Assembly (NCBI GenBank): GCA_945872365.1
Contig: CAMBZJ010000027.1
Location: 1 to 40,228 of the forward strand
Source: Klebsiella pneumoniae
Lineage (GTDB): Bacteria; Desulfobacterota; Binatia; UBA12015
Reading direction: 5' to 3'
DNA: 40,228 bases
Numbering within the stretch: position 1 is the first letter of the stretch; every line of letters begins with the position of its first letter. Both the position numbers and the translations under genes were made by a program. Of this stretch, positions 6,143 to 27,290 are shown piece after piece. Below the pieces are notes generated by a model. That model saw nothing but the letters and a program-made list of their open reading frames with translations. It did no database searches and was not told where the DNA came from.

Positions 6143-9100
6143 TCAGGGCAGCAGGGGAAGTCCGTTGCGCGCCGAGATCCCGAAGCCGGAGAGGAAGCGC
6201 AGAAGACCCCGCCGCTGCTCCCTGGGGGTCGCTTCGCGCAACCTCTCGATGAGCGCCACGCGCTGCGCGTCCCAGTGCTCCATCGCGAAGAGTCGGTCGA
6301 GCGCGAGCCGCGTCTCGAGAATCGCCTCGGCCTCGTGCCCCTGCCTGCGATGCACCCAGGCGAGCGCGAGCCGCAGGAAGGGCTCCCGGCTCCAGGCCCC
6401 GGTCTCGGCGACGAGTTCGAGGCAGCGACGGACACGCGTCGCGACGGCCTCGGGATCCGTGCGGCCGACGGCGGCATGAACCCAGGCCCAGCGCGTGTTG
6501 ATCTCGATCTCGCGCAGGCGGCCGCCCCGGCCCTCGATCGCGTCGAGGGCGCGGTCCGCGTCCGCGAGCGCCCCGGCAGGGTCTCCCGCGACCAGACGGC
6601 AGCCCGCGAGCCGGGCGCGGAGTCCGAAGTCGTCGCTGACGAGTACGCGGCTCGCATCGACGATGGCGATCGCTCGTTCGAAGAGGTCGGTCGCCGCGGC
6701 GTGCTGCCCGAACATGAGGCGAACCTCGGCGAGCGCGCCCAGCATGCGGCTCAGCAGGAAGTCGTTCCCTGCTCGCTCGGCGATCGCCACGCCCTCGATG
6801 CAGAGGGCGAGGAGATCGGAGGGGGAGGCGCCGGTGAGCCGGGCGCGCAGGGTCGCGGCCGCGATGGCAGTGCAGATCGTGATGGCGCTGCCCGAGCGAC
6901 GCGCCCGGCGGATCGCCTCCTCGAGGCAGGCGCCGCCCTCCCGAAGCGCTCCGGTGTCGACCAGCGCCGTGCCGCGCAACACGAGGTAGTCGACCGGTGT
7001 CGAGCCGGCAGACGGGTCGGCCGCCAGGCTCTCGTCCTGCGGGCGAAGCGGCTCCGAGCACTCCCGCAGGACGCCCGCCAGGTCGCCGATGGAGAAGAGC
7101 GCCGTGGCGCGCATGGTGCGGAGCGCAAGCTCGGGCGCGCGATGGCCCAGGCCGTCGTCGAGGGCACGCGAGACCTCGACGAGGTCGACGACCTCCTGGG
7201 TGCGGCCCGACATCGCGACGACCGCGGCATGCCCGGCGGCGAGCGAGGACGCGGCCGATGCGTCGCCGAGTTCGAGGGCGATGCGACGGCCGTCGGCGTG
7301 GACCTCCGCCGCCTCGTCCGGTGGAAGCCCGTGGCGCCAGCCGAGACGAAGCTGGTCGACGCAGACGTCGAGCAGCAGTCGGTCGTCGCGCCTCGACACG
7401 TCACACTCGGCGCATAGCGCGCGGGCTTCGCGAAGATGCTCCAGCGAACGGGAGGGGGCGCGCGGCATGGCGTAGCGTGCGGCGCGGTGGAGCCAGCGCG
7501 CGGCCTCGTCCGCCGCACCGACCTCCCGCCAATGGCCGGCGATCTCCGCGGCGTCGCGCTCCGGGTGCGGGCGTGCGGCGAGCGCCTTGGCGACGGCGAC
7601 GTGGAGTCTCGACCGCGCCCCGCTCAGCATCGAGCGCAGGGCCGTCTCGCGCAGGAGTCGGTGGCGAAAGCCGAAGACTCCCGGTCCGTCGGCCGGCATG
7701 GCCTCGACGATCTCGCTCGCCTGCAGGCGGCGCAGCGACTCCGCGATCCTGATGGCGGGCCGCGCCGCGGCCCGCGCCAGCACGGCCGCCTCGAAGCGCG
7801 AACCGACGACGGCCGCCGCCTGGAGCACTGTCTTGTCCTCCCGTCCGAGTGCGTCGATGCGCGCGGCCAGCAGGGCATGGAGCGTCGGCGGCAGGTCCTC
7901 GGCGGCGTGTTCCCGGACGAGCCGGAGGGCCCCGGGTTCGCCCGCGAGGGCGCCCCGGGTGCGCAGGGACTGCACGAGTTCGCCGAGGAAGAGGGGATTC
8001 CCGCCGGAACTGTCGCGCAGCCTCTCGCGAAGGGCGCCGAGGGACGGGTCGGTCCCGAGCAGCGCCCGCAGCAACTCCTCGCTCTCCCGCTCGCGGAGTG
8101 GAAGCAGGTGGATCGATCCCGCGAACGAGCCCAGCCGGGAGAAGGGGAGATCGTGGCCGCCGCGCTGGACGGCGATCAGCAGGCTGGGGCGGATCACGCC
8201 GCTCTCGACCCCGGTCGCCATGACCGACAGGCTCGCCGGGTCGATCCACTGGATGTCGTCGAGGATGACCAGACGCTTCCGGGTCCGATCCCTGGTGTCC
8301 ACGACGCGTCTCGAGAGGGCTGCGAGTTCGAGGTGCAGGCCGTCGAGGTGCAAGCGTGGCGTCGCACCGGGTGCGACGAGGCCGAGGAGTTCGAAGATGC
8401 GTGGCAGTTCCGCTTCGATACCGGGCTCGGAGAGCAGGAACTTGGCGGCGACCCGCTCCCGGGCGCGCTCGAGCGGCTCGCCCGGCTCGACCTCGAGCAG
8501 CCGGCGCAGGGCGCGGCGGTAAAAGGTGAAGGGGGCGTCGCGCTCCCCCTCGACCGCCGCGAGCCGCAGGGAGATCGCCGTGTCGCTCGCCTGCGCCCGG
8601 AGGGCGAACTCCTCGAGGAGGCGCGTCTTGCCGATGCCGGCCTCCCCGGTGACCGCGACGATCGAGGGGGTCTCGCGTTGCAGCAGCGCCTCGAGCATGA
8701 CCAGCTCGATCGTCCGGCCGACGAAGGGCAGCGCGCCGTGGACGGCAGGCCGTCGCCGGGTGCGCTCGCGCGCGCCCCGGAGTTCGAGGATTCGCAACGG
8801 CTCGCGAACGCCCCGCAATTCGACCGGGCCGAGTTCGCGCAGTTCGAAGCGCGCGTCGAGCAGCTGGGCCGTCGCCTCGCTCAGGTGGATGCTCCCGGGA
8901 GACGCGGACTGCTCGATGCGCGCGGCGATCCCGGCGGTACGCCCCTGGGCGGAGAGGGTGGATCCGATCGGACCGTAGACGACGTCGCCGGAGTGCAGTC
9001 CCATGCGGACCCTGAAGGCGATCCGGTCGGAGCAGCGGATCTCCTCGGCAAACACGGTGATCTCGCGGGCGAGGTGCAGTGCGGCGAGGCAAGCGAGGAT

Positions 9101-9472
9101 GGCGTGGTTCTCGAGCGCGACCGGAGCGCCGAAATGGGCCTTGATCCCCTCGCCGGTGAACCGGTCGACCACGCCTCCGTGGCTGCGGATGCCGTCGCCT
9201 AGGATGCGCAGGAAGCGGTCGATGATCGCGTGCCACCGCTCGGCGTCGAGCGCGACACCCAGCTCCGGACTACCGTGGGCGCTCACGAACAGGACGGTGA
9301 CGGGCTTGCGCTCGGTGATCGCGACGGGCGTTCCGCAGGACGGGCAGAAACGCGAATCCGGCGGGAACTGCTCCGTGCAGGAGGCGCAGCCGAGCGGCAT
9401 CGTGGCGCCGGTCTCGCACCATGGGCACGCCCCGTCGCCGGATCCGTGCGTGCAGAGGGTCATCGGGTTCAT
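6143..9472 (-). CDS. Zinc-ribbon / degenerate class III cyclase / AAA ATPase / TPR protein
   Basis: 1109 aa. Two Cys clusters (C7, C16/C19; C29/C32, C43/C46) look like zinc ribbons. Residues about 55-230 match the class III adenylate/guanylate cyclase domain. About 246-600 is an AAA_16-type ATPase with Walker A GEAGIGKT (276-283) and Walker B LVILDDIQW (401-409). The rest is helical and TPR-like, as in large MalT/cyclase signalling proteins. The cyclase site looks dead: the first metal Asp (usual LFADxxG) is Ser in LFVSAHG, the second (usual GD) is Glu in FTGEGIKAHFG, and the usual Asn before AAR is Gly (TAGIAAR). It is probably a sensory or scaffolding ATPase, not a cAMP producer. The start at 9472 lies after GAAGAG; an ATG at 9463 is also possible. 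It is divergent from the acyl-CoA ligase. Confidence 0.88.
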   Translation of the reverse strand: MNPMTLCTHGSGDGACPWCETGATMPLGCASCTEQFPPDSRFCPSCGTPVAITERKPVTVLFVSAHGSPELGVALDAERWHAIIDRFLRILGDGIRSHGGVVDRFTGEGIKAHFGAPVALENHAILACLAALHLAREITVFAEEIRCSDRIAFRVRMGLHSGDVVYGPIGSTLSAQGRTAGIAARIEQSASPGSIHLSEATAQLLDARFELRELGPVELRGVREPLRILELRGARERTRRRPAVHGALPFVGRTIELVMLEALLQRETPSIVAVTGEAGIGKTRLLEEFALRAQASDTAISLRLAAVEGERDAPFTFYRRALRRLLEVEPGEPLERARERVAAKFLLSEPGIEAELPRIFELLGLVAPGATPRLHLDGLHLELAALSRRVVDTRDRTRKRLVILDDIQWIDPASLSVMATGVESGVIRPSLLIAVQRGGHDLPFSRLGSFAGSIHLLPLRERESEELLRALLGTDPSLGALRERLRDSSGGNPLFLGELVQSLRTRGALAGEPGALRLVREHAAEDLPPTLHALLAARIDALGREDKTVLQAAAVVGSRFEAAVLARAAARPAIRIAESLRRLQASEIVEAMPADGPGVFGFRHRLLRETALRSMLSGARSRLHVAVAKALAARPHPERDAAEIAGHWREVGAADEAARWLHRAARYAMPRAPSRSLEHLREARALCAECDVSRRDDRLLLDVCVDQLRLGWRHGLPPDEAAEVHADGRRIALELGDASAASSLAAGHAAVVAMSGRTQEVVDLVEVSRALDDGLGHRAPELALRTMRATALFSIGDLAGVLRECSEPLRPQDESLAADPSAGSTPVDYLVLRGTALVDTGALREGGACLEEAIRRARRSGSAITICTAIAAATLRARLTGASPSDLLALCIEGVAIAERAGNDFLLSRMLGALAEVRLMFGQHAAATDLFERAIAIVDASRVLVSDDFGLRARLAGCRLVAGDPAGALADADRALDAIEGRGGRLREIEINTRWAWVHAAVGRTDPEAVATRVRRCLELVAETGAWSREPFLRLALAWVHRRQGHEAEAILETRLALDRLFAMEHWDAQRVALIERLREATPREQRRGLLRFLSGFGISARNGLPLLP

Positions 9473-9671
9473 GGCGCCGCGCTCTTCGTAGGGCACCCGG
9501 GGGGCGGGTGCCGGCGCGCGCGACGCTATCACGAAGGCCTGCCCGAGGCGACGACCGGGCGACGCTCGCGACGACGCTCGCATGGATGCCGGGTCGCCCG
9601 GCGGGCGTCCCGGGCGGGGGCCGCCCACCGCGGTCTTTTGCCCAGTGAGCGGGCGTTATAAGGCCACCGGG

Positions 9672-11300
9672 ATGGTCGCGCTCCGGGATGTCGCCCCCTC
9701 GCCGGGAAGGATTGCGCGCCACGTCGCCGACGGCCACTGGCCGCACGAGGGGCCGGGCGACGCGCTCGACCGGCTGGCCGACGAGGCGCCCGGCCACGTG
9801 GCGTTCGTTGCCGGGGCGGAGCGCGTCACGGCCGGCTCGCTCGTGCGCCGCGTGGCCGCGGTCGCGGCGGGCCTGCGGCGGATCGGGATCGGGACGGGGG
9901 ACGTCGTCTCGTGGCAGCTCCCGAACTGGATCGAAGGCATCGCGCTGCACTTCGCGATCGACCGGGTGGGCGGCGTGTCGAATCCGATCCTGCCGATCTT
10001 CCGCGAGCGCGAGCTCGCGTTCGTCGCGCGGCAGGCCGGCACGCGGGCGCTATTCGTGCCGGGTGTGCTGCGCGGCTTCGACCACCGCGAGATGGCGCTC
10101 GCCGCGCGCGCGCGATGTCCGGACCTGGAACACGTCGTCGTCGTGCGGGCCGCGCCCGCAGGTGGACAGGTCGGTTTCGATGCGCTCTGCGCGGGAGCCG
10201 CCGACGACCGTCCACCGACGCCGCGCGGTCCGCACGACGTCTCCGCGCTCTTCTACACCTCCGGCACGACGGCCGACCCCAAGGGGGTCCTGCACACCCG
10301 ATCGACCCTCGGGCACTTCCTGCGGGTCCAGCAGGCGGCGCTCGGCGCCGACGGCGCGGCGGTGGGCATCCTCTGGTTCCCGCTCACCCACATCGGCGGC
10401 GTGTGCGCCTTCGGAACCGGGCCGGTCGCGGGGCGTACGCGCGCGGTGCTGCTCGAGCCGTTCGATCCGGAGCGCGCGCTCGAACTGATCGAGGCCGAGG
10501 GGGTGACCAGCGCCGGAGGTCCGACACCGGTGCTCCAGGCATTGCTCGGGGCGCGCGGCTTCGCGCCGGGCCGGGTCGCCAGCGTGCGCGTGGCCGGCCT
10601 CGGCGCGACCGACGTGCCTCCCGAACTGGTGCGCGAGGTCGGCCGCAGGCTCGGCGCCTTCGTGTATCGCTCCTATGGGATGACCGAGTGTCCGATGGCG
10701 ACCGCGGGTCGTCGCGGCGACCCTGCCGACGCCCTCTGCGGCACCGACGGTCGGCCGTCCCCCGGGGTCGAATTGCGCATCGTGGACGAGGCCGGCCGAC
10801 CGCTCGGCCCGGGGACGGAGGGGGAGGTCGAACTCTTCGGACCGCAACTTTTCGTCGGCTACGTCGACCCCTCCCTCGACCGGGATGCGTTGGCCGCCGA
10901 CGGCTTCCTGCGCACGGGCGACCTCGCCGTCCGCGACGAGGCCGGGTTCGTGCGGATCACCGGTCGCCGCAAGGACGTGATCCTGCGCAAGGGCGAGAAC
11001 CTGAGCGCGAAGGCGATCGAGGACGAATTGCACGAGCACCCGGCCGTCGCCGAGGCGGCCGTCGTGGGCGTACCCGACCCGATCTGCGGCGAGAGGGTCT
11101 GCGCCTGCATCGTGATGCGGCCGGGATTGGTTGTACCCGACCTGCGGACGCTCGGCGACTTCATGCGGGCCCGCGGCGTGATGGTGCAAAAGATCCCCGA
11201 GCAGCTAGAGATCCTCCCGGAATTGCCGCGCAACGCGACGGGCAAGGTGAAGAAGCAGGAACTGCGCGCTCGTCTCGCGGCCGGCGCGAAGGGCGCATGA
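9672..11300 (+). CDS. AMP-dependent acyl-CoA synthetase/ligase
   Basis: 542 aa, full length for the ANL superfamily. The phosphate-loop motif YTSGTTADPKGV is at about 195-206, then YGMTECP. The hinge is TGDLAVRDEAGFVRITGRRK, followed by GENLSAKAIEDEL, and the adenylation Lys is in NATGKVKK near the C-terminus. It should activate a carboxylic acid to acyl-AMP and then the CoA thioester. The overall look is of medium-chain or cyclohexanecarboxylate-type ligases, but the substrate is not certain. The start at 9672 follows AAGG; an in-frame ATG 90 bp upstream gives Pro/Gly-rich sequence unlike the family. The stop overlaps the next start (ATGA), so it is translationally linked to the histidine phosphatase. 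Confidence 0.9.
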   Translation: MVALRDVAPSPGRIARHVADGHWPHEGPGDALDRLADEAPGHVAFVAGAERVTAGSLVRRVAAVAAGLRRIGIGTGDVVSWQLPNWIEGIALHFAIDRVGGVSNPILPIFRERELAFVARQAGTRALFVPGVLRGFDHREMALAARARCPDLEHVVVVRAAPAGGQVGFDALCAGAADDRPPTPRGPHDVSALFYTSGTTADPKGVLHTRSTLGHFLRVQQAALGADGAAVGILWFPLTHIGGVCAFGTGPVAGRTRAVLLEPFDPERALELIEAEGVTSAGGPTPVLQALLGARGFAPGRVASVRVAGLGATDVPPELVREVGRRLGAFVYRSYGMTECPMATAGRRGDPADALCGTDGRPSPGVELRIVDEAGRPLGPGTEGEVELFGPQLFVGYVDPSLDRDALAADGFLRTGDLAVRDEAGFVRITGRRKDVILRKGENLSAKAIEDELHEHPAVAEAAVVGVPDPICGERVCACIVMRPGLVVPDLRTLGDFMRARGVMVQKIPEQLEILPELPRNATGKVKKQELRARLAAGAKGA

Positions 11301-12004
11301 GCGAGCTCGGGGAGGGCAGGCCGGTGGCATCGGGTTCGATCGACGGGAGCGGGTACGGGCGATTGATCCTCGTCCGCCATGGTGAGAGCGAGGGCAACGA
11401 GGCGCGCCAGTTCTCGGTGAGTCCCGACATCGGGCTGACCGAGCGCGGCGCCGAACAGGCCCGGGTCGCGGGGCGGCGGATCGCGGCTGAATTCCGCCCG
11501 TGCGCGATCGTCGCGAGCAGTTTCCGGCGAGCTCGTCTCACGGCGGAGCTGATCGCAGCCGAAGTCGGCTACGTTGGCCCGGTCGAGGTCGAGCCGGACC
11601 TGCGCGAGCGCTCGATCGGCGAACTCGCCGGCGCGCCCTACGACGCCATGCACCGCCACCCGACCTACCGCCACGACCGTTTCTGGGAGTGGCGCCCCGA
11701 GGGCGGGGAGTCGCTCGAGGACGTCGCGCAGCGCGCCGGACTAGTCCTCGAGCGCATCGCTCTGGCGCATCCCGCGCGCGACGTCGTCGTGGTGAGCCAC
11801 GGCGGAACGATGCTCGCGCTGTGTGCCCACGTCGAGCGCGGCTGGCTGCGCCCGCGAGTCGCCCGCAACTGCGAGGTGGTCGTGGTGCGCCATGCGCCCG
11901 GGCGCGGCTTCGAACTCCTCGACGACGCGACGCGGGCCGCCACGGTGCCCGCGGCCAGCCGCGCTGCCGACGCCGACGCCGACGCCGACGACGCGACCGG
12001 CTGA
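11297..12004 (+). CDS. Histidine phosphatase (phosphoglycerate-mutase-like) family protein
   Basis: 235 aa. The phosphate-accepting His is in LVRHGESEGN, the Glu region is RERSIGELAG, and the second His is in VVSHGGTMLAL. These are the hallmarks of the RHG branch (phosphatases, CobC/GpmB-like). The catalytic set looks complete. The start overlaps the ligase stop by 4 bp, and the kinase-like gene follows after 28 bp. A phosphatase between an acyl-CoA ligase and a small-molecule kinase may act on a phosphorylated intermediate of the same pathway; this is inference. The C-terminal tail is an Ala-Asp repeat encoded by a GACGCC microrepeat. Confidence 0.88.
   Translation: MSELGEGRPVASGSIDGSGYGRLILVRHGESEGNEARQFSVSPDIGLTERGAEQARVAGRRIAAEFRPCAIVASSFRRARLTAELIAAEVGYVGPVEVEPDLRERSIGELAGAPYDAMHRHPTYRHDRFWEWRPEGGESLEDVAQRAGLVLERIALAHPARDVVVVSHGGTMLALCAHVERGWLRPRVARNCEVVVVRHAPGRGFELLDDATRAATVPAASRAADADADADDATG
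11968..11990 (+). repeat. GACGCC hexanucleotide microrepeat
   Basis: Three to four near-perfect GACGCC units encode the Ala-Asp tail of the histidine phosphatase. It is a likely slippage-prone tract, in frame in any copy number. Confidence 0.7.
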
Positions 12005-12032
12005 GGCCGGTGCGTTGCGGGAGAACCCGACG

Positions 12033-13082
12033 ATGATCGACGCCGCCGCAGACGTGCGCGAGGACGAGCGACTCGACGAGACGCGCCTGCGCGACTGGCT
12101 CTCGCCGCGCCTCCCGGGACTCGGGGCGGACCTGGAGATCCGGCAGTTCCGCGGCGGGCATGCGAACCTCACCTACCTGCTGCGCAGCGGCGACGAGGAA
12201 TGGGTCCTGCGGCGCCCGCCGCTCGGCCCGGTCGCACCCAAGTCGCACGACATGGCGCGCGAGTTCCGCGCTCTCGCAGCACTCGCGCCCCTCTATCCGC
12301 CGGCGCCGCGCCCGGTCGTACTCTGCGAGGATCCGTCGGTCGTCGGCGCGGTCTTCTTCGTCATGGAACGACGCCGCGGCCTCGTCGTCCGCCACGATTG
12401 GCCCGGCGAACTCGGCGAAGATCCGGTCCTGCGTCGCCGCATGGGCGAGTCGCTCGTCGACGCGCTCGCCGACCTGCACCTCGTCGACGTCGCCCGTCCG
12501 GAGATCGCAGCACTCGGTCGGCCGCAGGGTTTCGTGCGCCGCCAGGTCGAGGGGTGGTGGGAGCGCTGGCAGCGGGCAAAGACCCGCGAGATTCCGGTCA
12601 TGGACGAATTGTGCCTGTGGCTCGATGCGCGGATGCCGGACTCGTCCGCGGTCGCCGTGTTGCACAACGACTGGAAACTCGACAACGCCATGTTCGCGCT
12701 CGAAGATCCCGGCCGCCTGCATGCCGTCTTCGATTGGGACATGGCGACGCTCGGGGATCCATTGGTCGATCTCGGCACCTTCCTCGGCTACTGGGCCGAG
12801 GCGGGCGACGACGCGCCGCGCGGGACCGGTTCCGCTGTGACCGCTCTCGGGGGCTTTCCGGCGCGTGCGGAACTCGCCGACCGCTACCGGGCGCGCACCG
12901 GCAGCGACCTGTCGGCCCTGCCCTGGTACGAGACCTTCGGCCTGTTCAAGACCGCAGTCGTGCTCGAGCAGATCTACGTCCGCTTCGTACGCGGACAGAC
13001 CAGGGACGATCGCTTCGCGGCCCTCGGGTCGATGGTTCCGCTGCTCGCCGAGGCGGCATGGAGGACGGCCGGGCGGCTCTAG
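12033..13082 (+). CDS. APH-family phosphotransferase (ACAD10/11 kinase-domain type)
   Basis: 349 aa. The protein-kinase-like APH fold shows the catalytic loop HNDWKLDN (H211, D213, N218) and the metal-binding FDWDMATLGDP (D234/D236). The N-terminal RQFRGGHANLTYLL, then WVLRRPP, is the nucleotide-binding loop typical of the ACAD10/11-associated kinases. In eukaryotes this domain is fused to an acyl-CoA dehydrogenase and phosphorylates 4-hydroxyacyl-CoA; here it stands alone. The neighbouring acyl-CoA ligase fits a similar role (inferred). Some relatives are annotated as aminoglycoside phosphotransferases, but resistance is unlikely. GGGAG lies about 10 nt before ATG 12033. Confidence 0.88.
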   Translation: MIDAAADVREDERLDETRLRDWLSPRLPGLGADLEIRQFRGGHANLTYLLRSGDEEWVLRRPPLGPVAPKSHDMAREFRALAALAPLYPPAPRPVVLCEDPSVVGAVFFVMERRRGLVVRHDWPGELGEDPVLRRRMGESLVDALADLHLVDVARPEIAALGRPQGFVRRQVEGWWERWQRAKTREIPVMDELCLWLDARMPDSSAVAVLHNDWKLDNAMFALEDPGRLHAVFDWDMATLGDPLVDLGTFLGYWAEAGDDAPRGTGSAVTALGGFPARAELADRYRARTGSDLSALPWYETFGLFKTAVVLEQIYVRFVRGQTRDDRFAALGSMVPLLAEAAWRTAGRL

Positions 13083-13165
13083 GCTCGGGCGGGAGGGTCG
13101 CGACCCGCCCGCGACCGGCGGTTCGCGCCGGCGGGGTTGGGGCGGCGTAGCGGGGGGCGGAATCG

Positions 13166-14449
13166 ATGCGCGACGCGGGCTCCTGGGACATTGCCATCGT
13201 CGGTGCGGGTGCGGCGGGACTTGCGACCGCGATCTTTGCCGGTCGCGCCGCGGCGGCGGCCGGGCGCACGCCGCGCATCGCGGTCGTCGACGGTGCGCAA
13301 AGCCTCGGCCGCAAGATCCTGGTCTCCGGCGGCGGCCGGTGCAACGTCACGCACGACGTCGTCGACGAGACCGCGTTCGCGGGAAGTTCGCCGGCGGCGA
13401 TCCGCAAGGTGCTCCGACGGTTCGACGTGCCGCAGACGATCGAGTTTTTTCGCGGGATCGGCGTCGACCTGGTGCGGGAGGACGGCGGCAAGCTCTTCCC
13501 GTCGACCGATCGCGCACGCACGGTGCTCGACGCGCTGCTCGGCGCCTCCCGCGAGGCGGGGATCCAACTCCTGCACCCCTTCCGGGTCGAGTCGATTGCC
13601 GCCGATCCGCAAGGCTTCGTCGCAAGCGGTCCCGAGGGGCAGATGCGCGCGCGTCGCCTGGTGCTCGCGACCGGTGGACGCAGCCTGCCGCAGACCGGCA
13701 GCGACGGGCTCGGCCTCGAACTCGCGCGGGGGGCGGGCCACCGCCTCGCCGAGCCGATCGTCCCGGCGCTGGTGCCGCTCGTGCTCGAAGCCGGTCATTT
13801 CCTGCGTATCCTCGCCGGGATCTCGGCCGATGCGCGCGTCGAGGTCCGCAGTGCAACCGGTCGACGCATCGCCGCGTTCGCAGGCCCCGTCCTGTGCACC
13901 CACTTCGGTCTCTCGGGGCCGGCGATCCTCGACGCGAGTCGCCACCTGCTGGTCGCGCGCGGCTGCGGAGAGATGGCGCGACTCGCGATCGACTGGCTTC
14001 CGGCGCGTCCGGTCGAAGCATGGGAGGCGGAACTTCTCGCGCGGCCCCGGCTCGGGCCGGGGCGCTTCCTGCGCGAGGCCGGGCTCGCCCAGCGACTTGC
14101 CGACGCCCTCTGTCGTCACGCCGGTCTCGACCCGGCGCGCCCGATGCACGAGTTGTCGCGCGAGCGTCGGCGCGCGCTGCTCGCGGCGACCACCGACCTC
14201 GACGTGCCGGTGACCGGTGATCGTGGCTTCGTTCACGCCGAGGTGACCGCCGGCGGCGTCCCGCTTTCCGAGATCCGGCTGGACACCATGGAGTCGCGCC
14301 GTTGCCCGGGCCTCCACCTGGTCGGCGAGATCTGCGACGTGGACGGGCGCATCGGCGGATATAACTTTCAGTGGGCCTGGGCGAGTGGCCGGGTCGCCGG
14401 CGCGGCGCTGGGGAAGTCGGTGGAAGCGGGAGCGGAGGGCGGGCGATGA
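13166..14449 (+). CDS. HI0933/BaiN-like NAD(P)/FAD-dependent oxidoreductase
   Basis: 427 aa. The dinucleotide-binding motif is VGAGAAGLA (12-20), followed by the family signature LGRKILVSGGGRCNVT, LATGGRSLPQTGSDG, and the C-terminal GEICDVDGRIGGYNFQWAWA, which closes the FAD site. This matches the HI0933-like (YhiN/BaiN) flavoproteins. The physiological reaction is unknown for most members; BaiN from gut clostridia reduces bile-acid dehydro-intermediates. GGGGGGCGG precedes ATG 13166. It is co-directional with the kinase (83-bp gap) and the GNAT gene (46 bp). Confidence 0.92.
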   Translation: MRDAGSWDIAIVGAGAAGLATAIFAGRAAAAAGRTPRIAVVDGAQSLGRKILVSGGGRCNVTHDVVDETAFAGSSPAAIRKVLRRFDVPQTIEFFRGIGVDLVREDGGKLFPSTDRARTVLDALLGASREAGIQLLHPFRVESIAADPQGFVASGPEGQMRARRLVLATGGRSLPQTGSDGLGLELARGAGHRLAEPIVPALVPLVLEAGHFLRILAGISADARVEVRSATGRRIAAFAGPVLCTHFGLSGPAILDASRHLLVARGCGEMARLAIDWLPARPVEAWEAELLARPRLGPGRFLREAGLAQRLADALCRHAGLDPARPMHELSRERRRALLAATTDLDVPVTGDRGFVHAEVTAGGVPLSEIRLDTMESRRCPGLHLVGEICDVDGRIGGYNFQWAWASGRVAGAALGKSVEAGAEGGR

Positions 14450-18984: not shown

Positions 18985-19005
18985 GAGCCGGGTCGGTCCC
19001 GGCTC
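18985..19005. terminator. Hairpin between convergent dehydrogenase and DAHP synthase genes
   Basis: GAGCCGGG (18985-18992) pairs perfectly with CCCGGCTC (18998-19005) across a 5-nt loop. One arm includes part of the aroF stop codon. There is no T-tract, so the terminator role is inferred. Confidence 0.45.
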
Positions 19006-20122
19006 AGGCGGCGGCGTTCGCGGCCGCCGCGGCGCGGCGCTTCAGGTAGGCCTCGCGGACGATCGCGATGTCCTCGAGATAGGGCCCGAGTTCCTCGAGC
19101 GTGAGCGCCTGCGGTCCGTCGCACAGCGCCTTTGTCGGGTTCGGGTGGAAGTCGACGAGCACCAGGTTGGCGCCCGCGATCACGCCCTGCGCCGTCGCGT
19201 GGTGGATGTCGGTCAGGCCATCGGGGGCCGGTTCCTTGCGACCGACGGAGTGGGAGGGGTCGATCGCGACGGGCAGGCGGGTGAGTCGCTTCACCACGGG
19301 CACGTGGGCGAAGTCGACGAAATTGCGGTGCGGATCGCCGAGGTTGGTCTTCATGCCGCGCAGGCAGAGGATGATGCTGCGATTGCCCTCGCTCGCGACG
19401 TACTCGCAGGCGTTCAGCGACTCCTCGAGGGTGATGCCCATGCCGCGCTTGAAGAGCACCGGGAAGCGCTGCTGCTGTCCGACGATCTTGAGCAGCTCGA
19501 AGTTCTGCGCATTGCGCGTCCCGATCTGGAGCATGACGCCGGTCGGCGAGCCGGCCGCGTCGAGCGCCTCGTTGATCTCGCCGATCTGCGACTCGTGCGT
19601 GATCTCCATCGCGATCACGCGGATGCCGTACTTGCCGGCGAGTTCGAAGACCCACGGAAGGCAGGCCTTGCCAAGTCCCTGGAAGTCGTAGGGGCTCGTG
19701 CGCGGCTTGTAGGCTCCCATGCGCGTGGTCGTGATGCCGGCGGCGCGAAGCCCGCGGAACATCGCCTCGGCGTGTTCGGGTACGTCGACGGCGCAGAGTC
19801 CGGGGAGGACGTGGAGCGAGTCCTGGTCGAAGGCGACGCCCTGGTACTCGAAGCCGACCGCCGCGACCTGCCCCTTGTGGTGGCCGATCAGGCGGTACTT
19901 TTCGGAGATGCGCACCACCCGCTCCACGCCGTCGAGTTCCTCGAACGCGGTGGTCGGGACCGTCGCGGTCGAGCCGATCAGGTAGATCTCGATGAGCGAA
20001 CGGGTGGAACCCGCGACCTCGTGCACCTGCGCGGTGACGAGGGGAAAGGTCGCGGCGCGGTCGACGACGGCCTTGACCGTGGCCGAATCGCGCGGCGTGT
20101 CGGGTTTCAGGATGACGATCAC
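19004..20122 (-). CDS. aroF: 3-deoxy-7-phosphoheptulonate (DAHP) synthase, AroAI-beta/KDO8PS type
   Basis: 372 aa. An N-terminal ferredoxin-like regulatory domain (MIVILKPDTPRDSATVK and onward) is followed by the TIM barrel with MGAYKPRTSPYDFQGLG, VLFKRGMGITLEE and VAIDPSHSVGRK. It should condense PEP with erythrose-4-phosphate in the first step of the shikimate pathway. The segment LRGMKTNLGDPHRN differs from the usual CERGIRTFETYTRN wording, so this is a divergent branch. GTG 20122 is preferred because homology begins exactly there (MIVILKP); the ribosome site is poor. Confidence 0.9.
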   Translation of the reverse strand: MIVILKPDTPRDSATVKAVVDRAATFPLVTAQVHEVAGSTRSLIEIYLIGSTATVPTTAFEELDGVERVVRISEKYRLIGHHKGQVAAVGFEYQGVAFDQDSLHVLPGLCAVDVPEHAEAMFRGLRAAGITTTRMGAYKPRTSPYDFQGLGKACLPWVFELAGKYGIRVIAMEITHESQIGEINEALDAAGSPTGVMLQIGTRNAQNFELLKIVGQQQRFPVLFKRGMGITLEESLNACEYVASEGNRSIILCLRGMKTNLGDPHRNFVDFAHVPVVKRLTRLPVAIDPSHSVGRKEPAPDGLTDIHHATAQGVIAGANLVLVDFHPNPTKALCDGPQALTLEELGPYLEDIAIVREAYLKRRAAAAANAAA

Positions 20123-22617: not shown

Positions 22618-23142
22618 CTAGCGCGAGGGCGTCGCGGCGAGGTCGCCGAGTTCCACCCGGTCGCCCTCGGTCACGCCCTGCTCGTCCATGAAGCCGCCGG
22701 GCACCTCGAGGACGAAGCGTACCGGCTCGCCGCTCGGCAATGACTTCTCGGAGAATGGCTCGGTGCGCCGCGCGACGTGCGCGATGCGGCCATCGTCGGC
22801 GATGTAGACGATGTCGAGCGGGATCTTCGTGTTGCGCATCCAGAAGCCCTGCAGGCCGGCCTTCGGGAACACGAAGAGCATCCCCTTCCCGGGGGCGAGC
22901 GAGTCCCGGTACATGAGACCCAACTGGCGCCCCTCCGGGGTCGTGGCGAGTTCGACCGCGACCGGGACGGCCTTGCCGTTCGCGGGTTGGAGCTGGACCT
23001 GGTGGCCCCGGTCGCGGGCGCAGGCCGAAGCCGCGGCGAGCCCGACGCCGAGCGACACGATGGCGAGGAGCCCGATCTTCCCGCGTCGCGCCCACGGGAA
23101 GATGGCCGTGTCACGCCGTCCGGTCGCGACGACCGGGCTCAG
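22618..23142 (-). CDS. DUF192 family protein, exported; start codon unclear
   Basis: The frame encodes a signal-like segment (RRGKIGLLAIVSLGVGLAAA) followed by the DUF192 fold: VAVELATTPEGRQLGLMYRD, GMLFVFPKAGLQGFWMRNT and IPLDIVYIADDGRIAHV. DUF192 proteins are small periplasmic beta-sandwich proteins of unknown function. The frame has no ATG, GTG or TTG upstream of the signal peptide. The only option seen is a CTG at 23142 that overlaps the stop of the Fe-S oxidoreductase gene. The annotated 5' end is therefore a guess. An indel in the first codons is the other explanation. Confidence 0.75.
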   Translation of the reverse strand: MSPVVATGRRDTAIFPWARRGKIGLLAIVSLGVGLAAASACARDRGHQVQLQPANGKAVPVAVELATTPEGRQLGLMYRDSLAPGKGMLFVFPKAGLQGFWMRNTKIPLDIVYIADDGRIAHVARRTEPFSEKSLPSGEPVRFVLEVPGGFMDEQGVTEGDRVELGDLAATPSR

Positions 23143-25436
23143 GCGAGCGCCTCCGCGACGAGTTCGACCACGTCCTTCACCGCGACCTCCTCTTCGACGC
23201 CCTTGGCCTTGGCGGCGTCGCCGATCATCGTCGTGCAGAACGGGCAGGCGACCGCGACCGTGTCGGGCTTGGTCTCGAGCAGCTGCTCCATGCGCGTGAC
23301 GTTGATACGCGCCGTGTCGTGCTCCTCCTCCTTCCAGAACTGGCCGCCACCCGCGCCGCAGCAGAAGGTTCGCCGCCGCGACTGCTCGACGTCGGCGCGC
23401 TGCATGCCGGGAATTGCGTCGAGGACCGAGCGCGTCTCCTCGTGCACGTTGTTGTGACGCGCGAGGTAGCAGGGGTCGTGGAGGACGAGCTTCTTGCGCA
23501 TGAAGTCGCGGCCGAGCTTGATCCGGCCGGCGTCGAGCAGGCTCTCGATGAACTGTACCGTGTGGACGACCTGGAACTTGCCGCCGAGGTCCGGGTACTC
23601 GTTCTTGATCGTGTTGAAGCAGTGCGGGCACTGCGTGACGATCTTGTCGAACTTGTAGCGGTTGAGCGTCTCGACGTTCATCTGCGCGAGCGTGAAATAT
23701 AGGTACTCGTTGCCGAGGCGGCGTGCCGGCTCGCCGGTGCACTGCTCCTCCATGCCGAGGATCGCGAACTTCACCCCGGCCGCCTTCATGATCTTCACGA
23801 GCGAGCGGCTCGTCTTCTGGTTGCGGTCGTCGAAGGAGCCGGCACAGCCGACCCAGTAGAGCACCTCGACGCGCTCGTCCTCGCCGAGTTCCGCCATCTG
23901 CGGCACGTCGAGACCCTCGGCCCAGTTCGCGCGCGTGTCGGCCGCGATGCCCCAGGGGTTCGACTGGTTCTCGGTCGCCTTGAAGGACTTCGCCAGGTCC
24001 GACGGGAAGGCGCTGCGCATGAGCATGTCGTTGCGGCGCATGTCCACGATGCGCTGGATGTGCTCGATGCCGACCGGGCAGCCCTCCTCGCACCATCCGC
24101 AGGTGGTGCAGCCCCAGATGACCGGCTGGGTGGCGACGTCGTTGATCATGTCGGCCCCGGCGAGCCAGGCCTGGTCGCGGCCCGAGCCGTCGAGGAGTTC
24201 GTGCACGGGCGGCTCGTCGCCGATCGAGGTGCCGCCGCCGGTCGCGGCGTCCTCCGGTCCGTCGCCGTTCGCCGCTGCGCCGTTCGCCGCCGCGGTCGTG
24301 CCGTTGCCGTTGCCGTTGCCGTTTCCGTTCGCGGCGGCCTTGCCGCCGAACTTCGCGAGCTGCGCCACGAGGAAGGAGCCGGCCGGCAGGAGCGAGGGCG
24401 CCTTGGCGAGCAGGTGCTCGCGCTGCTCGATGACGAGGTGCTTGGGATTGAGCGCCTTCTGGGTGTTCACCGTCGGGCAGTTGATCGTGCAGCGGCCGCA
24501 CTCGAGGCAGGCCGCCATGTCGAGCAGCTGCTTCCAGGAGTACTCCTCGATCTTCTCGACCCCGTAGGTCTCGGCGTTCTCGAGGTCCTCGATCGGCTTG
24601 AGCCGTGCGCCGCGCTCGTAGCCGGCGCCCAGGTTCTTGAAGAACAGGTTCGCCGGCGCGATGAACATGTGGCGCAGCTTCGTCGAGGTCATCGAGTAGA
24701 GGAAGCCGAGCACGATGATCATGTGGACCCACCACACCGTGTAGTGGGTCGCGCTCGTCGCCCCGGCCGCGCGGAAGGCGCGCGCGAACCACGGCCCCAC
24801 GAAGGCGAAGCCGTCGGCCGTGTGGGGCGCCGTCGCGATGCGCGCGCCCTCGAGCAGGAACCCGGTGAACCCGATCAGCCAGAGCATGACCAGCGGGAAG
24901 CCGTAGCCCGACTCGTTCTCGAACGTGGCGACCATCTTCGCCGGCTGCCCGAGGGCGCGGGTCGGCTGCACGTAGCGCCGCCACAGGAACCAGCTCGACG
25001 AGACGATCAGGCCGACGCCGGCCAGGTCCATCATCAGCTTGTAGAGGCCGAAGAACGCGCCGTAGTAGAACTGGAGCGGCGTGTCCTCCTCGACCGTGAT
25101 GAGCGAGGTGCCGATGAACAGCACGAGGAACGATACGAACAGGAGCTGGTGCATGATGCCCGATGGCTCGCGCACCACGCGGCCCTGGCCGAAGCCTTCG
25201 AGGAAGGCGGCGCGGAAGCGTCGGCCGAGCTGGTCGAACCGATTCTCCGGCTGGCCGATGCCGACGATCCGCGCCCAGCTCAGCAGGGGCAGGACGATCG
25301 ACACGCCCCAGACGGCAAAGAGGACGAAGGCGAGGCCGAAGCGGAAGAGGCCCCAGGGGTTGGCGAGCGCCCAGTGGAAGGCCTCCGGGGCGTTCCAAAG
25401 GATCTGGCGCGTCTCCTCGGTGTTCGTGTTCAGCAT
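23139..25436 (-). CDS. Membrane Fe-S oxidoreductase with CCG domains (ETF:quinone type, EtfD-like)
   Basis: 765 aa. The N-terminal half has about six membrane helices of the nitrate-reductase-gamma/heme-b kind, with His in SGIMHQ, HYTVWWVHM and LRHM that may ligate heme. Two 4Fe-4S motifs follow (CLECGRCTINC at about 310, CTTCGWCEEGC at about 443). Two CCG (HdrB/GlpC-type) domains close it (QCPHCFN, HDPCYLARHN, TFCCGAGGG, ACPFCTTM). Between the Fe-S motifs is a low-complexity Asn-Gly/Ala linker (about 367-407). Proteins of this build next to etfBA, as in mycobacteria, receive electrons from reduced ETF and pass them to quinone. ATG 25436 follows a run of G. It lies 98 nt after etfA with a hairpin between. 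Confidence 0.9.
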   Translation of the reverse strand: MLNTNTEETRQILWNAPEAFHWALANPWGLFRFGLAFVLFAVWGVSIVLPLLSWARIVGIGQPENRFDQLGRRFRAAFLEGFGQGRVVREPSGIMHQLLFVSFLVLFIGTSLITVEEDTPLQFYYGAFFGLYKLMMDLAGVGLIVSSSWFLWRRYVQPTRALGQPAKMVATFENESGYGFPLVMLWLIGFTGFLLEGARIATAPHTADGFAFVGPWFARAFRAAGATSATHYTVWWVHMIIVLGFLYSMTSTKLRHMFIAPANLFFKNLGAGYERGARLKPIEDLENAETYGVEKIEEYSWKQLLDMAACLECGRCTINCPTVNTQKALNPKHLVIEQREHLLAKAPSLLPAGSFLVAQLAKFGGKAAANGNGNGNGNGTTAAANGAAANGDGPEDAATGGGTSIGDEPPVHELLDGSGRDQAWLAGADMINDVATQPVIWGCTTCGWCEEGCPVGIEHIQRIVDMRRNDMLMRSAFPSDLAKSFKATENQSNPWGIAADTRANWAEGLDVPQMAELGEDERVEVLYWVGCAGSFDDRNQKTSRSLVKIMKAAGVKFAILGMEEQCTGEPARRLGNEYLYFTLAQMNVETLNRYKFDKIVTQCPHCFNTIKNEYPDLGGKFQVVHTVQFIESLLDAGRIKLGRDFMRKKLVLHDPCYLARHNNVHEETRSVLDAIPGMQRADVEQSRRRTFCCGAGGGQFWKEEEHDTARINVTRMEQLLETKPDTVAVACPFCTTMIGDAAKAKGVEEEVAVKDVVELVAEALA
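24288..24333. repeat. Microrepeat encoding an Asn-Gly linker
   Basis: A run of GCCGTT-type hexamers (plus strand) encodes alternating Asn-Gly within the Fe-S oxidoreductase, between its two 4Fe-4S sites. It is an in-frame slippage-prone tract, expected to vary in length between strains. Confidence 0.7.
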
Positions 25437-25473
25437 GGTGCCCCCCGCGTTTACCGCATCCGGGCGCGTCCCC

Positions 25474-25510
25474 AAAACGAAGCAGGCCGCGGGTCGTGTC
25501 CCGCGGCCTG
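25474..25510 (-). terminator. Strong hairpin after etfA
   Basis: CAGGCCGCGGG (25483-25493) and CCCGCGGCCTG (25500-25510) form a perfect 11-bp stem with a 6-nt loop. In the minus direction it is followed by CTTCGTTTT. It sits between etfA and the Fe-S oxidoreductase, so it should stop or attenuate transcription and lower the downstream gene's level relative to etfBA. Confidence 0.65.
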
Positions 25511-25534
25511 TATTCCCGGGCGCCCGGTGGTTCC

Positions 25535-26503
25535 TCAGTGCGCCTTGAGCTTCTTTACTTCGTCGGCCATCTCGGGGACGGCCTTGAAGAGGTCGGCGAC
25601 CAGGCCGTAGTCCGAGACGTTGAAGATCGGGGCATCACCGTCCTTGTTGATGGCGACGATCACCTTGGAGTCCTTCATGCCGGCCAGGTGCTGGATGGCG
25701 CCGGAGATGCCGACCGCCACGTAGAGCTGGGGGGCGACGACCTTGCCGGTCTGTCCGACCTGAAGGTCGTTCGGCACGAATCCGGCGTCCACCGCCGCGC
25801 GCGACGCGCCCATGGCGGCTCCGAGCGCGTCGACCAGCGGCTCTAGGACCGTGGTGAAGTTCTCGCCCGACTTGAGCCCGCGGCCGCCCGAAACGACGAT
25901 CGTTGCGTCGGTGAGCGCCGGGCGGTCGCTCTTGGTCTCGTTGAACGAGACGAAGCGCATGCGTCCCGCGACGTCGGCGGGCAGGGCGGCCTTCTCGACC
26001 GCCGCGGCGGCGGACTTGGGCGCCGGCTCGAAGGCCGTGCCGCGCACCGTCACGACCTTGGTCGGGGTCGTGATCGTGACCGTCGAGAGCACGTTGCCGG
26101 CGTAGGTCGGCCGGACGATCGTGCCGTCGTCGTTGAAGGCGGTGATTTCGCTCGCCATGCCGGCGTCGAGGAGTTGCGCGACGCGCGGGAAGAAGTCCTT
26201 GCCGATGGCCGTCGCTGCACCCACCACCCAGGTGGAGCCCATCTGCTTCACCACGCCGGCGAGCGTCTTCGCGTAGACGTCGGCGACATAGTGCTCGAGC
26301 TTCGCGTCGTCGATCGCGACGACCTTGCCGACGCCGTGGGCGGCCGCTGCGGCCGCGATGCCGTCGATGCCCTTGCCGAACACCACCGCGGCGGTGTCGA
26401 GCCCGTTGCGCTTGGCGACCTCGAGGCCGGCCGAGATGGCGACGAGCGAGGTCTTCGGCAGCTTGCCGTGCGCGTGTTCGATGAAGATCAGGACCTTGGC
26501 CAT
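25535..26503 (-). CDS. etfA: Electron transfer flavoprotein alpha subunit
   Basis: 322 aa, usual length. The C-terminal FAD-binding domain is clear: [34 protein letters not shown], and [20 protein letters not shown]. The N-terminal [20 protein letters not shown] is typical. With EtfB it carries electrons from acyl-CoA dehydrogenases to the membrane. ATG 26503 lies 31 nt after the etfB stop, so the two are one transcription unit. A hairpin follows the stop. Confidence 0.96.
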
Positions 26504-26534
26504 TGTTCGTTCTCCGTTGTCCCGCGTGCGGCGG

Positions 26535-27290
26535 TCAGATGAGCTTCGCCTCGGTGTGGAGCAGCTGCACGAGTTCCTGGACCGTCTCGACCTTGCGGCC
26601 GCCCGAGCGCTTGGGCGGAGACGCCATCTTGTTCGTCGAGACCTTGGCACCGCCGGCTACGCCGTACTCGGCGAGCGGGGTTTCCTTGAGCTCTTTCTTG
26701 CGGGCCTTCATGATGCCGGGCAGCGATGCATAGCGCGGCTCGTTCAGGCGCAGGTCGGTCGTGATGATGCCGGGCAGGGCGAAGGCGACCTGCTCGAGGC
26801 CGCCGTCGACCTCGCGGGTCACCGTCACTTCCTTCTTGTCGGCCGAGAACTCGACCTTCGAGGCGAAGGTCGCCTGCGGCCAGTCGAGCGAGGAGGCGAG
26901 GATCTGGCCCACCTGGTTGGCGTCGTCGTCGATCGACTGCTTGCCGGCGAGGACCAGGTCGGGGGACTCGGCCTCGACCACCTTCTTCAGCACGGCGGCC
27001 GCCGTCGCCGGGTCGAGATCCTCCTCGGCGACGATCAGGATCGCGCGGTCGGCTCCCATGGCGAGCCCGGTGCGGAGTTGCTCCTGGGTGACCTTGGGTC
27101 CGATCGAGACCAGGACCACGTCCGCGCCGCCCTGCTGCTCCTTGATCCTGAGAGCTTCCTCGAGCGCGATCTCGCAGAAGGGATTGATGACGAACTTGAC
27201 GTTGTCGGTCACGATACCAGAGCCGTCGGGCTTGACCGCGATGTTCGTCTGCGGGTCGGGTACCCGCTTGATGGGAACCAGAATCTTCAC
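26535..27290 (-). CDS. etfB: Electron transfer flavoprotein beta subunit
   Basis: 251 aa. KILVPIKRVPDPQTNIAVK at the N-terminus and the signature LVLAGKQSIDDDANQVGQIL identify EtfB, which binds AMP and docks on the dehydrogenase. The start is GTG 27290, preceded by AAGGAGAG. The ATG further upstream at 27431 lies in Arg/Pro-rich sequence and was rejected. It is the first gene of the etfB-etfA pair, downstream of the IclR-type regulator. Confidence 0.96.
   Translation of the reverse strand: MKILVPIKRVPDPQTNIAVKPDGSGIVTDNVKFVINPFCEIALEEALRIKEQQGGADVVLVSIGPKVTQEQLRTGLAMGADRAILIVAEEDLDPATAAAVLKKVVEAESPDLVLAGKQSIDDDANQVGQILASSLDWPQATFASKVEFSADKKEVTVTREVDGGLEQVAFALPGIITTDLRLNEPRYASLPGIMKARKKELKETPLAEYGVAGGAKVSTNKMASPPKRSGGRKVETVQELVQLLHTEAKLI

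Follow-up and report, generated by a model that had tools for sequence, protein, structure and literature searches.

A candidate hydroxyacyl-CoA kinase beside a ligase–phosphatase pair in a genome of the class Binatia

The unfused form of the hydroxyacyl-coenzyme A (CoA) route is already of a known kind, namely the bacterial lva pathway, whose operon (Rand 2017, as cited in passages of PMC12440821, PMC11342911 and PMC6692424) encodes in Pseudomonas putida a ligase (LvaE), a short-chain dehydrogenase/reductase (SDR; LvaD), a kinase (LvaA with LvaB) and a dehydrogenase (LvaC). According to the relevant passages of PMC12440821 and PMC11342911, a special dehydrogenase processes the phosphorylated acyl-CoA both in the lva pathway and in mammalian ACAD10 and ACAD11, where it is fused to the kinase. 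Here we analyze a comparable but differently composed locus: a block of three genes, coding for a CoA ligase (P0001), a histidine phosphatase (P0002) and a kinase of the aminoglycoside phosphotransferase (APH) fold (P0003), on contig C27 (CAMBZJ010000027.1; 40,228 nucleotides, hereinafter the window) of a 3.1 Mb genome in 57 contigs (GCA_945872365.1; GTDB: Desulfobacterota, Binatia, UBA12015). Our favored reading, to which we give roughly even odds (about 0.5), is that P0003 is a hydroxyacyl-CoA kinase working with dehydrogenases encoded elsewhere in the genome. Here and below we infer the substrates of the ligase, phosphatase and kinase, and any cooperation among the three.

Like the lva operon, the window combines an unfused ligase with an APH-fold kinase, and its genome also has LvaC-type dehydrogenases with the phosphate-site residues; however, the block itself holds neither a dehydrogenase nor an SDR, and a histidine phosphatase lies between ligase and kinase. 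The kinase also differs in lacking a DUF6285 partner, its neighbors being the phosphatase and an HI0933-like oxidoreductase. We take LvaB to be a DUF6285 protein, a family on which our literature search found no paper. A levulinic-acid cluster of Pseudomonas citronellolis LA18T, as described in part of PMC6692424 (2019), likewise brings together an acyl-CoA ligase, an LvaA-like kinase and a histidine phosphatase (which we could compare with P0002 by description only); unlike the window, it also holds LvaC and LvaD homologs, and its phosphatase was proposed to perhaps remove the phosphate from 4-phosphovaleryl-CoA. With ACAD10/ACAD11 (PMC12440821 and PMC11342911, in the passages concerned) P0003 shares the kinase fold, the catalytic residues, a CoA-contacting arginine and the expected chemistry, but it is free rather than fused and belongs to a clade other than that of ACAD11; moreover, the phosphatase-fold part of ACAD10 is a HAD domain, whereas P0002 is a histidine phosphatase. 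A further relative, the 25-hydroxysteroid kinase (PDB: 9fsg, 9ft5), is likewise of the APH fold and phosphorylates an alcohol according to the PDB titles, although its substrate is a steroid and its identity to P0003 is ~20%.

A kinase related to ACAD11 and its probable dehydrogenase partners

P0003 consists of a single Pfam domain (PF01636, E 3e-45) with the catalytic motifs HNDWKLDN (at 211) and FDWDM (at 233) intact. Its sequence matches in the PDB are 9o56 (E 2e-93; 46% identity), ACAD11 (8v3v, E 2e-50; 32.6% identity to the kinase domain) and 3dxp (E 1e-49). The predicted model (pLDDT 91.5) finds its best structural match in 3dxp (Z 32.4, 320 aligned, root-mean-square deviation [rmsd] 2.7), followed by the 25-hydroxysteroid kinase 9ft5 (Z 26.8, 323 aligned, rmsd 3.5), and it matches ACAD11 with Z 20.5 and rmsd 2.5 over 227 residues; 9o56, which is not among the structural-match rows listed (VIA-align, Foldseek), is used for sequence similarity only. 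D213 and N218 of P0003 align with D220 and N225 of ACAD11, and R170 with the CoA-contacting R176, all three being invariant across 28 aligned rows. In a 134-row tree (quick method; supports by the Shimodaira–Hasegawa-like approximate likelihood ratio test [SH-aLRT] only; ACAD11 on a long branch; ACAD10 and LvaA not included; L054, L066 and L067 left out as short or as duplicates of genomes of the order), P0003 falls within a 109-row clade (SH-aLRT 99) that contains the dehydrogenase-linked kinases and outside a 15-row clade uniting 3dxp with the ACAD11 kinase and with a second kinase encoded in this genome (G000:C7:32112-33116). Because the two clades are separate, P0003 appears related to the ACAD11 kinase without being its ortholog. 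The label 'ACAD10-type', under which the gene was originally predicted, is loose for a kinase of a sister clade at 32.6% identity to the ACAD11 kinase domain.

Candidates for the partner expected from the known systems are encoded at a distance from the block. Searching the genome for the dehydrogenase family gave 33 matches, all of them outside the contig of the window. Two of them on other contigs (G000:C8:93010-94203 and G000:C1:154624-155823) are 57–67% identical to three kinase-near plasmid dehydrogenases from Azospirillum, Deinococcus and Cytobacillus, the next best reaching ≤33% in a comparison that took in the loci of 30 of the 33 matches; three other plasmid dehydrogenases used as references are of other types. 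Both keep all four ACAD11 phosphate-site residues (R626, H634, R637 and D753), and no kinase adjoins either. In a sample of 198 genomes of the phylum, the kinase was detected in 32, the dehydrogenase in 30 and both in 30 (24 and 23 of 145 genera for kinase and dehydrogenase; Fisher p 1.7e-33, relatedness ignored), and none of the remaining 166 genomes, which are without the kinase, showed a dehydrogenase. The survey for an ACAD11-like dehydrogenase called for by the original prediction thus finds one in 30 of the 32 kinase-bearing genomes; the two genes lie ≤3 kb apart in 22 of the 30 genomes that have both.

Linkage was also scored in other samples. Of 65 kinase loci from named genomes, at 47–55% identity, 56 have more than 1.5 kb of upstream sequence, and 20 of the 56 have an LvaC-signature dehydrogenase ≤300 bp upstream (anywhere in the locus: 28/56); relatives from the order of the window appear in such named collections under labels such as 'Deltaproteobacteria' or 'Candidatus Binatia'. 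Among plasmid dehydrogenase loci sampled one per genus, an annotated phosphotransferase gene occurs within 4 kb in 9/13 and does not in 4/13. Of 39 dehydrogenase loci, 34 show the signature. The five that do not are L213, truncated at a contig end, L216, which retains the aspartate but deviates beside it, and L240, L245 and L247, in which the first motif is missing. Within the order a full-signature dehydrogenase is present in 12 of 14 genomes, the exceptions being G004, whose best match fails the signature, and G006 (63% complete), which has no match. As a separate observation, in loci of the phylum sample the LvaC-type dehydrogenase and the kinase flank a TetR-family regulator gene (PF00440; L296:7846-8544, the one tested).

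Since LvaC/ACAD11-type dehydrogenases accompany such kinases, and since the genome encodes two of them, an unfused hydroxyacyl-CoA kinase route in this genome is likely. The hydroxy-acid route of the original prediction thus gains from the dehydrogenase coupling (30/32) and the two genomic copies, but it is not new, given the lva pathway. P0003 would phosphorylate the hydroxyl group of a hydroxyacyl-CoA, probably a 4-hydroxyacyl-CoA; a stand-alone LvaC/ACAD11-type dehydrogenase, encoded elsewhere in the genome, would eliminate the phosphate to give a 2-enoyl-CoA, which could then enter β-oxidation. The ligase and phosphatase would form a separate, partly conserved two-gene unit, placed directly upstream of the kinase in this genus. 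A kinase clade that is large and often named 'aminoglycoside phosphotransferase' would thereby be linked to hydroxy-fatty-acid breakdown in uncultured bacteria.

Several observations weigh against assigning this activity to P0003. The 30/32 coupling covers both kinase clades, as the cut-off of 1e-40 also takes in the ACAD10/11 clade, and scoring in the phylum sample was limited to the top 9 dehydrogenase and top 10 kinase candidates of each genome. Two kinase-bearing genomes (G096 and G154) are without a dehydrogenase at threshold, and half of the judged loci from named genomes (28/56) show no signature-bearing one. No dehydrogenase occurs in the window or in the stretches surrounding the 13 kinase orthologs from the order; near these kinases we found instead SDR genes, a second ligase or a DAHP synthase. 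The dehydrogenase is also absent from five Myxococcota-labelled loci whose kinases are 64–65% identical. P0003 R76 fits the published description of ACAD11 R86, but counting residues gives a different number. Finally, we found no substrate for any member of the 109-row clade, and its solved member, 9o56, is named only 'aminoglycoside phosphotransferase' and yielded no paper in a literature search. At the five Myxococcota-labelled loci (L061, L063, L064, L065 and L068) the kinase lies directly behind SDR genes, a possible clue to a keto- or hydroxyacyl substrate.

Two other activities were considered for P0003. It might phosphorylate a different alcohol (a steroid or terpenoid side chain, for example), with another lyase eliminating the phosphate, as the product of the 25-hydroxysteroid kinase is subsequently eliminated; the rank of that enzyme as next structural match after 3dxp and the closeness of the ligase to aryl/alicyclic acid ligases (see below) agree with this. 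We nevertheless hold it to be improbable, as P0003 is ~20% identical to the steroid kinase against 46% to 9o56 and 33% to ACAD11, and its clade is coupled to LvaC-type dehydrogenases with a known phosphate site. The automatic name 'aminoglycoside phosphotransferase', carried by several database entries and matching the shared Pfam family PF01636, would make P0003 an antibiotic-modifying enzyme. This has a negligible chance of being right: no NCBIfam aminoglycoside or macrolide model matches P0003 at E 0.001, only the thiamine kinase and LxmK models do so, far under their cut-offs, and a kinase with an ortholog in 14/14 genomes of the order, 64–100% identical, does not show the pattern of a resistance gene. 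Given this distribution and the want of an NCBIfam resistance model, we rejected antibiotic resistance as the function.

The ligase–phosphatase pair and its placement

The three genes of the block were exactly where originally predicted (Table 1), with a 4-bp overlap between ligase and phosphatase (11297-11300) and a 28-bp gap between phosphatase and kinase (12004 to 12033). Such packing is real but ordinary in this window, where 5 of 20 same-strand neighbor pairs, both pairs of the block included, have gaps ≤30 bp, as counted from our own gene calls, which miss at least one gene near 18–19 kb. At their cut-offs the NCBIfam models name none of the three proteins.

Table 1. Features of the window and loci of the second histidine-phosphatase subfamily
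Feature	Coordinates or loci	Strand	Details
Ligase P0001 (acyl/aryl-acid ligase, AMP-forming)	9672..11300	+	ATG 9672, stop 11300, 542 aa
Histidine phosphatase P0002 (branch 1, RHGESEGN/SHGG type)	11297..12004	+	ATG 11297, 235 aa, PF00300
APH-fold kinase P0003 (likely hydroxyacyl-CoA kinase)	12033..13082	+	ATG 12033, 349 aa, PF01636
Regulator-like gene, cyclase and AAA_16 domains, divergent	6143..9496	-	PF00211, PF13191 over cut-off
DAHP synthase	19004..20122	-	PF00793; 6 kb from kinase
Fe-S/cysteine-rich oxidoreductase and electron transfer flavoprotein (ETF) alpha, beta genes	23139..27290	-	PF02754, PF01012, PF00766
Second subfamily beside LvaC-type dehydrogenase and/or LvaA/ACAD10-11-like kinase genes, several phyla	16 of L287-L307		
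Further loci of the second subfamily so placed, several phyla	L165, L167, L286, L315, L316, L317, L319, L320, L321, L322, L324		

P0001 combines PF00501 (E 2e-65) and PF13193 (E 3e-15), with the catalytic motifs YTSGTTADPKG (at 195) and RNATGK (at 520) intact. Among NCBIfam models, cyclohexanecarboxylate-CoA ligase scores highest, its 364 bits falling far short of the cut-off of 792, and among solved structures the closest are aryl-acid adenylating enzymes (5wm2, E 7e-84); the protein is nearer to ligases of aryl and alicyclic acids than to the model for medium-chain fatty acid ligase. A plasmid search with P0001 gave generic relatives only among the best 10 of 2780 records. The ligase may feed a CoA ester into the kinase route. 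P0002 is a branch 1 member of the histidine phosphatase superfamily (PF00300, His_Phos_1, E 1e-42), and its catalytic motifs RHGESEGN (at 27) and SHGG (at 167) are intact. It is probably an ordinary small-molecule phosphatase.

We then compared the block across the 14 genomes of the order, whose assemblies are fragmented, genes at contig ends being set aside where stated. Orthologs of the kinase are present in all 14 and those of the phosphatase in 13, the G004 copy having an in-frame stop and G002 a remnant at the edge of a contig. In 8/14 the phosphatase gene is immediately preceded by the ligase gene; in 5 it has no such ligase nearby, and G002 is not judgeable. Adjacency of phosphatase and kinase was observed in the three genomes of the genus of the window (the window itself, G002 and G003): in G003 the same-strand genes are spaced by ~30 and ~27 bp, the kinase running off the contig, and in G002 the phosphatase ends ~25 bp before the kinase, the contig ending inside the block. 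Elsewhere in the order, G001 and G012 have an opposite-strand SDR gene separating phosphatase from kinase, 8 genomes carry the two genes on separate contigs, and G013 is not judgeable. In G004, G005, G012 and G013 a different ligase, ~31% identical to P0001, follows the kinase. Because the kinase occurs in 14/14 and the pair in 8/14, and because phosphatase and kinase lie apart elsewhere in the order, the ligase–phosphatase pair and the kinase appear to be separate units that were brought together in one genus. This corrects the idea of the three genes as a conserved cassette. For the original prediction, which was to fail if the genes did not co-occur in other genomes, the outcome is split: the components do recur across the order (kinase 14/14, phosphatase 13/14 plus the remnant, full-signature dehydrogenase 12/14), but the three-gene block was seen only in the genus of the window (the window and G003, with G002 cut).

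These distributions bear on whether the block is a single operon serving one pathway, in which the phosphatase would hydrolyze the phosphorylated intermediate or the free acid and so reset or limit the route. The common strand and the spacings of -4 and 28 bp, echoed in G003 and G002, speak for such an arrangement, as do the retained catalytic motifs of P0002 and the fact that another histidine-phosphatase subfamily adjoins such kinases in some bacteria. We still regard it as unlikely: the block was seen in one genus alone, with the intervening SDR gene or separate contigs in the genomes named above; the clade of P0002 is far from the kinase-linked one and stands by other genes in other genomes of the class; and the phosphatase-fold domain of ACAD10 had negligible phosphatase activity on the intermediate (PMC11342911, in the passage concerned). 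Outside the order, relatives of P0002 (E 1e-25) were recovered from 4 of 197 sample genomes, all of the same class and 44–49% identical, and a profile search found no kinase, ligase or LvaC-type dehydrogenase within 14–15 kb around these four. Among the best 40 of 158 records, a plasmid search with P0002 likewise returned generic relatives only. As neither the clade of P0002 nor its conservation favors a proofreading role, the suggestion that the phosphatase resets or proofreads the intermediate found no support; its clade occurs among other genes in the four same-class genomes and is not the kinase-linked subfamily.

Histidine phosphatases beside putative hydroxyacyl-CoA kinases

By following the dehydrogenase loci we found a second subfamily of histidine phosphatases, with RHGQASF or a near variant as the N-terminal motif. 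Of the 20 genomes in the phylum sample that could be judged, 15 have a gene of this subfamily ending 34–172 bp ahead of the dehydrogenase, and the kinase downstream (profile matches; 22 considered, with G024 and G062 set aside for having <200 bp upstream and G155 counted by one of its two loci). On plasmids it adjoins kinase and dehydrogenase in Deinococcus and Azospirillum. In ten further plasmid loci, one per genus, the kinase lies beside the phosphatase in 8, and 6 of these 8 have a full-signature dehydrogenase (the Sulfitobacter one is truncated where the stretch ends, and that of Azoarcus does not fit the strict pattern); these loci were chosen by searching with the phosphatase itself, a choice biased towards linkage. 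The two without a kinase are from Haematobacter and Cupriavidus metallidurans, and in the Azoarcus operon a DUF6285 gene stands between the kinase and the histidine phosphatase. In samples drawn without the phosphatase, none of 13 plasmid loci chosen by dehydrogenase has the subfamily, and none of 65 named-genome loci chosen by kinase has it on the strand of the kinase.

The position of the second catalytic histidine (that of SHGG), with its correspondence taken from the alignment and the count made by motif, is occupied by serine in 28 of 29 members; the remaining one, from Azoarcus, has arginine, and none has histidine. P0002 does not belong here: its motifs differ, it keeps this histidine, and a 100/100 branch separates it from the dehydrogenase/kinase-linked histidine phosphatases. 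A search for the RHGQASF/TSGG subfamily gave no match in the 14 genomes belonging to the order of the window or in 6 others of its class, whereas it detected the subfamily in 5/5 other genomes of the phylum, two of which (G066 and G144) are not in the alignment. Among the matches listed in our literature search, a TSGG histidine phosphatase beside these kinases is not described except in the cluster of PMC6692424.

The passage of PMC11342911 on ACAD10 reports that its phosphatase-fold domain, despite negligible phosphatase activity on the intermediate, restrains the kinase. As that domain is nearly inactive yet restraining, and as the bacterial subfamily has lost a catalytic histidine, regulation rather than proofreading is suggested where a phosphatase-like protein adjoins the kinase. 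Taken together, a phosphatase-fold partner might be a recurrent and probably regulatory element of 4-hydroxyacyl-CoA catabolism, in the form of the Ser-for-His subfamily in some bacteria, of a degenerate HAD domain restraining the kinase in ACAD10, and of the intact, unrelated P0002 in the same place in the genus of the window, whose order lacks the subfamily. We give this generalization only a slim chance, its odds being lowered by the counts of 0/13 and 0/65 in loci sampled without the subfamily. The Ser-for-His subfamily turns the unexplained gene of P. citronellolis into a testable question, namely whether a phosphatase-like partner checks an ATP-spending phosphorylation.

Surroundings of the block and other kinases of the genome

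A scan of 9400-13300 found no promoter-like sites and two terminator-like matches, both within the kinase gene, against an expectation of 0.8 (standard deviation 1.0). Searches of the window with Rfam and for tRNAs gave no matches, and a repeat search returned nothing of use.

A large AAA_16 gene is divergent to the ligase–phosphatase pair in four genomes (the window, L042, L043 and L265:710-3934). In G001 and G012 the gene beside the pair belongs to the same cluster (c12) as that of the window, and in G004 it is an AAA_16 gene of similar length; the copy in the window carries the cyclase domain. We regard this gene as a candidate regulator of the pair.

Several kinases of the superfamily coexist in this genome with different partners. 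Two further APH kinases are each followed by an overlapping small gene (L052:3217-4694, on G000:C7, and L053:6243-7753, on G000:C36), of which the former codes for DUF6285 (PF19802) and the latter matches no Pfam family. The second kinase of the ACAD11 clade (in L052 at 8095-9150) has no dehydrogenase or ligase among its called neighbor genes.

In 9 of 13 relatives a DAHP synthase gene lies in the stretch analyzed around the ortholog of P0003. Some relatives also have the oxidoreductase/ETF genes (clusters c4, c7 and c8) near this ortholog, ETF genes being present in 4/13.

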